Assembly: GCA_947476675.1 (NCBI GenBank)
Contig: CANJRL010000016.1
Location: forward strand, 1-32,611
Direction of reading: 5' to 3'
Source: Phycisphaerales bacterium
GTDB taxonomy: Bacteria; Planctomycetota; Phycisphaerae; Phycisphaerales; UBA1924
Length of the DNA: 32,611 bases
Of the stretch, positions 30,075 through 32,348 are shown piece after piece. The notes under the pieces are model-generated. The model did not search any database. It saw only the letters and a list, made by a program, of their open reading frames with translations, and had not been told where the DNA came from. Each line of letters opens with the position of its first letter. Position 1 is the stretch's first letter. The translations under genes and the position numbers were made by a program.

Positions 30075-30904
30075 GCACGCTGACCATTGCTTTCTTCGGC
30101 GACGTCGTGGGCGATCCCGGCCGGCGCGCCTTCACGCACGCCGCCCGCGCCCTCCGCGCCGAACGCCGCGCCGACCTCATCGTCGTCAACGGCGAGAACG
30201 CCAAGCACGGCTCCGGCCTCAGCGCCGACAACTTCCGCGCCCTCCGCGATGCCGGCGCCGACGCCGTCACCCTCGGCGACCACTGCTTCCGCGAGAAGCA
30301 GGCCATCCCTCTCCTCGACGACCCGCGCGAGCCGGTCTCGCGCCCGGCCAACCTCGCCGCGAGCGCCCCGGGCAAGCGCACCGCCAGGGTCCCCCCCGCA
30401 ACCCCCGGCGCGCCGGCCCTGCACATCGTCACCGTCCTCGGCCGCCTGCAGATGCCCATGCCCGCCGACGACCCCTTCGCCGCCATCGACCGCGAGATCG
30501 CCGCCATCGCCGACCCCCACGCCGTCGCGCTCGTCGAGATCCACGCCGAACTCACCAGCGAGAAGCAGGCCGTCGCCTGGCACTGCGCGCGAAAGTGGGG
30601 GGGCGTCGTCGTCGGCGTCGTCGGCACCCACACCCACGTGCAGACCGCCGACCCCCGCATCCTCGAGGGCCGCGTCGCCGCCATCACCGACGCCGGCATG
30701 TGCGGCCCGCACCGCTCCATCCTCGGCCGCCGCGTCGACGACGTCCTCAGATGGATGACCACCCAGGCCCCGACCGTGCTCGACATCGCCGACGGCGACG
30801 AGCGGGCCAGCGGCGTCATCATCCGCGTCGACCCCGGTCAGCCCGGCGCGCGCAGCGCCCGCGCCATCGGCATCGAACCGTTCAGCATCGCGTCGGCGAC
30901 CTGA
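30071..30904 (+). CDS. ymdB: YmdB-type (TIGR00282) metallophosphoesterase
   Basis: A 277-residue protein of the YmdB/TIGR00282 family, cAMP/cGMP phosphodiesterases involved in biofilm and sporulation decisions in Bacillus. The metal-site motifs are readable in order: IAFFGDVVGDPG (Asp11), VVNGENAKHG (Asn40, Glu42), LGDHCF (Asp70, His71), EIHAE (His148) and GTHTHVQTAD (His177, His179). Length matches the family. The third motif normally reads G-N-H; the Asn is replaced by Asp70 here, which may still bind metal but could alter activity. Translation is coupled to the flavoprotein by a 4-nt overlap. A cyclic-nucleotide link to the neighbouring oxidoreductase is speculative. Confidence 0.87.
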   Translation: MSTLTIAFFGDVVGDPGRRAFTHAARALRAERRADLIVVNGENAKHGSGLSADNFRALRDAGADAVTLGDHCFREKQAIPLLDDPREPVSRPANLAASAPGKRTARVPPATPGAPALHIVTVLGRLQMPMPADDPFAAIDREIAAIADPHAVALVEIHAELTSEKQAVAWHCARKWGGVVVGVVGTHTHVQTADPRILEGRVAAITDAGMCGPHRSILGRRVDDVLRWMTTQAPTVLDIADGDERASGVIIRVDPGQPGARSARAIGIEPFSIASAT

Positions 30905-30922
30905 GTCCCCACGATTCTCGGA

Positions 30923-30937
30923 CCGGATTTTTTCCGG
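30923..30937 (+). terminator. weak hairpin terminator after the ymdB gene
   Basis: CCGGA and TCCGG form a 5-bp stem around five T, followed by ATTTTCC, 18 nt after the stop codon. The same bases also form two direct copies of CCGGATTTT spaced 11 bp apart, upstream of the C14 promoter, so a regulatory role is an alternative. Confidence 0.4.
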
Positions 30938-30944
30938 ATTTTCC

Positions 30945-30975
30945 TTGCAGACCCCCCCCCCCCCCGTGGCATACT
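30945..30975 (+). promoter_or_regulatory. putative promoter with a C14 spacer
   Basis: TTGCAG (30945-30950) and CATACT (30970-30975) resemble -35 and -10 boxes 19 nt apart, and 14 consecutive C (30952-30965) fill most of the spacer. The next gene starts at 31050, giving a leader of about 70 nt. Slippage of the homopolymer would change the spacing and hence promoter strength. The match to consensus is only moderate. Confidence 0.4.
30952..30965 (+). repeat. C14 homopolymer tract
   Basis: Fourteen C residues in a row, directly 5' of GTGGCATACT. Long homopolymers are hypermutable by slippage; the length could also be a sequencing or assembly artefact. Confidence 0.85.
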
Positions 30976-31049
30976 GCATGGGCGTAGGAAGGGTGAACAA
31001 CGGTTTCGGGCGACTGTTCAGCCGCGAGTTCTTCTGGGAGACAACAGCA

Positions 31050-32348
31050 ATGCGAGCAGCAACACGGGGCGTCAAGGCGAGCGCGATCGATGCCTTTGCC
31101 TTCAACTCCTCTCCCTCCGGGAGAGGGCAGGGTGAGGGGCTCCCGCGTTTCCTCCCCTCTTCTGACTTCTCCTCGCACAACCAAGAACCCCTCATCCGTC
31201 AGCCTGCGGCTGCCACCTTCTCCCGTTGGGAGAAGGGTTCTTCCAACCCCTCTCCCTCCGGGAGAGGATGTCATCGCGGAGCGATGACAGGTGAGGGGCT
31301 CTTGGCCTCCTTCGCCGGCCTGCTCATCGCTTCATCATCCACCCTCGCGCAATCCAATGTGCCGCCGTCGTACGGACATGACTTTGTGACTGTCGGTGCG
31401 CCGGGCAATCGCCCCGCCCTGCCAAGCGAGCGCGTCATCAACTTCAATCTGACTCCTGTCACCGAACAGATCGGCGCGGTGAACTACACCTATCGGATCT
31501 CCAGAACCGAGACTACGATCGGCCAATGGCTCGACTTCGTGCGCGTCGCCTGGCCGGTGTACCAGAACGAGGTGAGAGGCAACATCCTGAGCGGCGCTTT
31601 CACCGGCAGCGGCATCGGCGTCCTCAACTGGACAACCAATCCCACGTTCTTCCTCGTTCGCGAGGCGAGCGTGACCCAGCCGACGAATATGGAGTGGCGA
31701 GCCGCCGCCATGTATTGCAACTGGCTGCACAACGGCCGGCCGACCGGCCCTGGCGCCGAGTGGTCGGTGCGGAGCGGCGCCTACGACATCCGCACCTTCA
31801 CCCGCAACCCCGACCTCTCGTTCAATGATCAACTCCGCCGCTCCGAGGGGGCGCGATACTGGATCCCCGACCTGAACGAGTGGACCAAGGCGGCCCACTA
31901 CGACCCCAACAGATACGGACCCGGGCAGGAGGGCTACTGGAAGTACCCCGTCACGAGCGACACGGCGCCCCTGACCGGCCCCCCCGGGCAGGGAACCACC
32001 GGCGGAACCGCTGCAAACGGCCTGCCCCTGCCCGTCGGCTCGTACCCCGACGTGCAAAGCCCCTGGGGCCTGCTCGACGCCTCTGGCGGCTACTCGGAGT
32101 GGACCGAGACGGTCATGTTTTCGTGGCAGAATCAGTACGGACTGGTGTCCGACAACTCCCGCATCATCCGCGGGAGCAACGCGGGCGCCGGTTCATTCAG
32201 AGACGAGATCGATGCTTTCCCCGCCAGCGCTGGAGCCACAGGCGGCCTGACCGGATTGCGCATCGCGTCGTTGGTCTCTTCTCCCGCCGCAGCGCCGCTG
32301 TTGTTCTTTGCACTTTGCGTTTGTGAGAGGAGGGTTCGCTCGCGCTGA
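31050..32348 (+). CDS. SUMF1/formylglycine-generating-enzyme-like secreted protein with repeat-derived N-terminus
   Basis: A 432-residue protein from the ATG at 31050 (GGGAG 9 nt upstream). Residues about 125-405 form a SUMF1/FGE-like (C-type-lectin-related) domain: ISRTETTIGQWLDFV, AAAMYCNWLHNG, YWIPDLNEWTKAAHYD, PWGLLDASGGYSEWTE and RIIRGSN. The two active-site cysteines of true formylglycine-generating enzymes are not apparent, so a binding role is more likely. The first 82 residues are partly translated palindromic repeats: SSPSGRGQGEG (20-30) and NPSPSGRG (66-73). A second ATG at 31284, supplied by the repeat, would give MTGEGLLASFAGLLIASSSTLAQ, a near-normal signal peptide, but with a Shine-Dalgarno only 2 nt away. 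The C-terminus has a hydrophobic segment followed by ERRVRSR, a possible degenerate anchor signal. Start choice uncertain. Confidence 0.7.
   Translation: MRAATRGVKASAIDAFAFNSSPSGRGQGEGLPRFLPSSDFSSHNQEPLIRQPAAATFSRWEKGSSNPSPSGRGCHRGAMTGEGLLASFAGLLIASSSTLAQSNVPPSYGHDFVTVGAPGNRPALPSERVINFNLTPVTEQIGAVNYTYRISRTETTIGQWLDFVRVAWPVYQNEVRGNILSGAFTGSGIGVLNWTTNPTFFLVREASVTQPTNMEWRAAAMYCNWLHNGRPTGPGAEWSVRSGAYDIRTFTRNPDLSFNDQLRRSEGARYWIPDLNEWTKAAHYDPNRYGPGQEGYWKYPVTSDTAPLTGPPGQGTTGGTAANGLPLPVGSYPDVQSPWGLLDASGGYSEWTETVMFSWQNQYGLVSDNSRIIRGSNAGAGSFRDEIDAFPASAGATGGLTGLRIASLVSSPAAAPLLFFALCVCERRVRSR
31107..31142 (+). repeat. palindromic intergenic-type repeat, copy A
   Basis: Contains CCTCTCCC-TCC-GGGAGAGG (perfect 8-bp stem, 31108-31126), then GCA and GGTGAGGGGCTC. 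This is the widespread family with CCCTCTCCC…GGGAGAGGG…GGTGAGGG. It lies inside the open frame of the SUMF1-like gene. Confidence 0.8.
31188..31236 (-). repeat. palindromic intergenic-type repeat, copy B (inverted)
   Basis: On the minus strand it reads CCTTCTCCC-AAC-GGGAGAAGG, a second small hairpin (GGCAGCCGCAGGCTG), then GGATGAGGGG. The layout equals that of copies A and C in reverse orientation; the 9-bp stem spans 31216-31236. Confidence 0.75.
31247..31301 (+). repeat. palindromic intergenic-type repeat, copy C
   Basis: Same outer hairpin as copy A (31249-31267) and the same end GGTGAGGGGCTC, but between them a second perfect 9-bp hairpin, TGTCATCGC-GGA-GCGATGACA (31269-31289). The second arm supplies the in-frame ATG at 31284. 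Confidence 0.8.

Follow-up and report, generated by a model that had tools for sequence, protein, structure and literature searches.

A C14 homopolymer in the spacer of a predicted promoter as a candidate phase-variable switch within a lineage-wide set in Phycisphaerales

Introduction

In a 32,611-nucleotide stretch of a Phycisphaerales genome (hereafter, the window), 14 consecutive C residues lie between the two hexamers of a promoter that precedes a gene for a predicted exported protein. Comparison with other copies of this module gives good support to reading the tract as spacer DNA in a sigma-70-type promoter, TTGCAG - C14 - TGG - CATACT, which we predict to be active. Our favored view, held with a little more confidence than doubt, is that this promoter may be a phase-variable or rheostat switch that works by slippage and belongs to a lineage-wide set. 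Phase variation through promoter spacers has been described chiefly in host-adapted pathogens such as Neisseria.

Anatomy of the promoter and its gene

All features of the window described here are on the forward strand. Read directly, positions 30945–30975 consist of TTGCAG (30945–30950), a single A (30951), the C14 homopolymer that fills the promoter spacer (30952–30965), GTGG (30966–30969) and CATACT (30970–30975), so the tract and the 19-nt distance between the hexamers are as the preliminary description gave them. TTGCAG is assigned as the −35 element from the sequence and from the alignment of copies, in which the other copies have TTGCAT. The same description had called CATACT only a moderate match to a −10 element; it read the hexamer correctly but overlooked the abutting TGG, which makes this an extended −10 (TGG-CATACT, 30967–30975) that is invariant in all five copies reaching that far. 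A scan of the whole window finds no other run of at least eight of any base, and 0.003 C runs of such length are expected per window under a first-order Markov model.

The hexamers and the extended −10 fit the sigma-70 type of the lineage. The 19-nt spacing exceeds the usual 16–17 nt and is the mode of the tract promoters described below. A strict sigma-70 scan of the window did not report this promoter because it permits spacers of 16–18 nt only. We rejected a sigma-54 reading of TGGCATACTGCA, in which, judged by eye, the −12 element lacks its GC.

The predicted 5′ leader extends from a putative start site at 30982 to 31049 and includes a probable ribosome-binding site, GGGAG, at 31036–31040. 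The gene that follows (31050–32348) encodes an FGE-sulfatase (SUMF1-like) domain protein (Pfam PF03781, E = 2.3e-10; 41 bits against a curated threshold of 23.3), whose translation contains a signal-like segment, a C-terminal hydrophobic segment and an Arg-rich tail. The domain and the two segments agree with the exported SUMF1-like protein proposed earlier, export being a prediction. On the 5′ side of the promoter, a gene for a YmdB-family phosphoesterase ends at 30904. REP-like palindromic repeats (CTCTCCCTCCGGGAGAGG...GGTGAGGGG, 31103–31301) lie in the 5′ end of the FGE-sulfatase gene, after the start codon and before the hydrophobic signal segment, and pieces of them recur at over 15 other genomic sites.

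The promoter is part of a dispersed gene cassette

The window is contig C16 of an assembly of 174 contigs and 2.72 Mb. A gapped search of this genome for TTGCA...TGGCAKANT returned five sites, and a sixth copy is cut by a contig end inside the tract. All six, the window and five more, head copies or fragments of one gene cassette. When the six copies are aligned, their likeness begins at GATTCTCGG, 32 nt 5′ of the −35 element, with a conserved edge (GATTCTCGG...TTTTCC, 30913–30944) that ends just before it; further 5′ the sequences are unrelated. The gene has therefore spread carrying its own promoter.

Both ends of the promoter are conserved, with TTGCA of the −35 identical in six of six copies and GTGGCATACTGCA identical in the five that extend there. 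The spacer reads C14 in the window, C13T in contig C174, CCCCCCTTCTCCC plus T or C in C15 and C63, and TCCCCCTCCCCCCCC in C138; matching C13 and C12 tracts occur in two other copies. A T interrupts the run in C15, C63 and C138 with the length nearly unchanged (19, 19, 19, 19 and 20 nt in five copies), which means that the promoter does not need an unbroken homopolymer. The distance from TTG to ATG in five copies is 105, 105, 105, 106 and 103 nt, which indicates that the region is a leader and not coding. A coding reading, in which an N-terminal extension would hold the C tract, was discarded because the frame from 30945 is not kept between copies. The strict module TTGC-C8+-TGNCANANT matched in this genome only; the TTGCA/CATACT form is therefore local, and it is the general layout that is family-wide.

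Roughly 16 runs of at least 10 nt are present in this genome, five of them in promoter spacers. Besides the cassette copies it has two independent tract promoters: a MauE gene is preceded by TTG-C12-TTGTGG-CAGAAT, and TTGACGGGC-G12-TACGCT, together with AAAGGAG, lies before the gene of a 90-residue secreted Cys-rich protein. An FGE-sulfatase paralogue on contig C11 (L083) has a G13 run in its coding sequence, about 809 nt into the gene, which leaves it one base out of the frame that stays open in its relative on C97. Three contigs of this genome (C2, C58 and C150) break off precisely where a run of C begins or ends (runs of C12, C19 and C11), as do contigs of its relatives; these breaks fit mixtures of tract lengths and equally fit sequencing trouble.

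Homopolymer-spacer promoters recur across the Phycisphaerales

We searched 163 family genomes (order Phycisphaerales) for a G-type pattern, TTGAC-N(0-8)-G10-N(0-5)-TANNNT, and for its C version, each with the reversed pattern as control. There were 67 distinct G-type sites, which fall in 38 of the 163 genomes (29 of the 74 genera) and number up to nine per genome, and 28 C-type sites in 19 of the 163 genomes; the reversed controls gave zero in both cases. Three tracts were counted in both the G and C versions, one per strand, leaving about 92 distinct tracts. As in the window, TG stands just 5′ of the −10 in 12 of 27 distinct C-type sequences. In a phylum-wide sample the G version was present in 14 of 294 genomes, again with a control of zero. 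The promoter assignment, which the preliminary description had proposed from the two hexamers, is thus strongly supported: it is kept in dispersed gene copies, its layout is found family-wide and the reversed controls are empty.

Some sites have further features. TGTCAA lies 3′ of the −10 at L270:1496–1531 (genome G029) and at L245:308–342 and L245:2831–2865 (genome G036), so that inverted-repeat sequences, TTGACAGAATA...TATTCTGTCAA, bracket the tract; no divergent gene was found at these sites. The idea that one tract feeds two divergent promoters is not supported for either candidate (G036 at 1638707; G029 C13), as a gene with a ribosome-binding site is missing on the reverse side. Near 1854896–1854958 of G036 contig C1, TTGACA and TATGTT are split by a G/C block of about 70 nt (C24, G11, G26), which is either a spacer that has expanded greatly or an error in the assembly.

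Tract promoters mostly precede genes for predicted exported proteins

The downstream open reading frame looks exported at 56 of 66 tract promoters (about 85%, one gene being counted twice) compared to 8 of 22 non-tract promoters (36%) drawn from two genomes only (Fisher P = 3e-5). For these counts, reading frames were chosen by a simple picker and export was judged by a signal-peptide score of our own making. Products that recur behind tract promoters are prepilin-like (N_methyl), MauE, FGE-sulfatase and small Cys-rich secreted proteins, along with a secreted family that has no Pfam match. G-tract promoters are also found at FGE-sulfatase genes in two other genomes (L224 and L260) and at MauE genes in two (L231 and L252). 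Many of the Cys-rich secreted proteins are very small (80–165 aa; L207, L217–L219, L229, L251 and others), and those scanned had no Pfam match. Because the set sits mainly before exported-protein genes, it probably consists of contingency loci, whether phase-variable or rheostat.

Runs also occur inside genes. In three other species, a G10 run lies in the signal-peptide region of an exported-protein gene that adjoins an FGE gene (L121:5043, L128:5010 and L131:4362), and all three genes are frame-shifted as assembled. These runs and the coding G13 of L083 would fit the same theme as the promoter tracts.

Spacer length is shifted and apparently held

Non-tract promoters of the lineage peak at a spacing of 16–17 nt. 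Spacers of 18–20 nt outnumber those of 16–17 nt by 51 to 18 among tract promoters, compared to 5 against 16 among ordinary ones (Fisher P = 6e-5). Tract promoters have a smaller second peak at 16 nt, and just 2 of 93 have 17 nt; in some of the 16-nt cases the true −10 may lie three bases further downstream. Two explanations could account for the overall shift: a longer optimum for homopolymer spacers, or assemblies that captured a low-expression state. In G036 both the run and its flank vary, yet the total spacer stays at 18–20 nt. We rely on this observation and have set aside a permutation test for compensation between run and flank (P = 0.03), which is biased by the length limits of the search pattern. 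Together with the 19–20 nt of the window copies, it suggests that spacer length is held and not free.

A held length invites a different reading, in which the stiff, A-like G/C homopolymer is a structural spacer of a constitutive promoter, with an optimum near 19 nt, purifying selection on its length and no switching. The clustering at 18–20 nt, the mutual offset of run and flank in G036 and the constancy of the window copies all speak for it, and because those copies keep 19–20 nt despite an interrupted run there is room for a constitutive promoter here. On the other hand, the T-interrupted runs in C15, C63 and C138 have near-equal length with no need for a pure homopolymer, long G/C runs are intrinsically prone to slippage, and nothing in a structural role would lead one to expect the excess of exported genes. 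We regard this reading as unlikely, though it is the strongest competitor to slippage-driven switching.

Tracts are concentrated in promoter spacers

Among 61 related genomes, 52 have runs of C12 or longer. The length of a run is therefore unremarkable by itself, and its position in a promoter spacer is the unusual part. In a 70% GC genome, one might expect unconstrained spacers to drift to G/C homopolymers, which exported genes merely tolerate. The abundance of long C tracts, the occurrence of some in coding sequence and the interrupted versions among near copies are all in keeping with such a neutral by-product. However, G036 is assembled as a single contig, and of the 23 tracts of at least 10 nt in 800 kb of it, 8 lie in promoter spacers, compared to 0.7% of random positions; few of its other noncoding tracts lie outside spacers. 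This concentration and the zero count of the reversed-pattern control make drift an improbable account, slightly more so than a structural spacer. That the length or presence of C14 is an error of a short-read metagenome-assembled genome (MAG) is very improbable: assemblers do fail at such tracts, as the ends of C2, C58 and C150 indicate, but the corresponding position carries C13 and C12 in independent copies and G036 has the same architecture in a single contig, although the exact length may still err.

Discussion

The reading that we prefer to these alternatives is switching by slippage. When the C run is replicated, slipped-strand mispairing would alter the distance between the −35 and −10 elements in single-base steps, and this in turn would raise or lower transcription of the exported FGE-sulfatase-domain protein in a heritable and reversible manner. 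The window promoter would then be one member of a lineage-wide set with G/C homopolymer spacers, chiefly before exported-protein genes. Near copies within genomes have tract lengths that differ by one to two G (a pair in G017, a set in G326 and a pair in G036), as read from MAG consensus sequences in which exact lengths are uncertain. That tract length changes in living populations, and that it sets expression, are both inferred.

Two features make slippage the natural interpretation: the layout matches that of porA, opc and fetA, and the downstream genes are biased to exported products; the window too has a homopolymer between −35 and −10 and a predicted exported product. In Neisseria meningitidis, transcription of porA, fetA and opc changes through unstable homopolymers located between −10 and −35, and those of porA and fetA are cited as changing sigma-factor binding (PMC2791445). 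For opc, C11 gives low and C12 high expression (PMC3447861). A caution comes from nspA, which illustrates that a homopolymer near the −10 can determine expression while switching is not measurable (PMC6389960).

The window resembles opc (opcA) in having poly-C between −35 and −10 and a gene downstream whose product is exported, a surface protein for opc and a predicted exported protein here, but the phylum and the protein are unrelated, and the window has a 19-nt spacer, an extended −10 and a layout that recurs at about 90 family sites. Similarly, the G-type sites of Phycisphaerales resemble porA and fetA in the place of the homopolymer, whereas porA and fetA are single loci in a pathogen and the environmental planctomycetes have up to nine G-type sites per genome. 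Phase variation by coding homopolymers, such as the poly-G of lgtA, has a parallel in the G13 inside the FGE-domain paralogue of this genome; that type of control is translational, does not act at a promoter and does not concern the window site. The literature we searched, with incomplete coverage, contained no description of phase variation in planctomycetes or of homopolymer promoters in Phycisphaerae, in line with the earlier remark that no planctomycete case was known.

A broader version of the switching proposal is a family-wide, genome-scale bet-hedging network in which G/C spacers stand before genes for exported products (prepilin-like, small Cys-rich secreted, MauE and FGE-like proteins). 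Expression would be low or off at the usual assembled spacer length of about 19 nt, with 17 nt avoided, and a slip of one to three bases would turn it on. We offer this version tentatively, with rather less confidence than the switch itself. The wider lineage pattern is more interesting than a single switch. If it is what we propose, a lineage-wide set in environmental planctomycetes would mean that contingency loci serve free-living bacteria too, and the set would flag uncharacterised exported proteins that are worth study.
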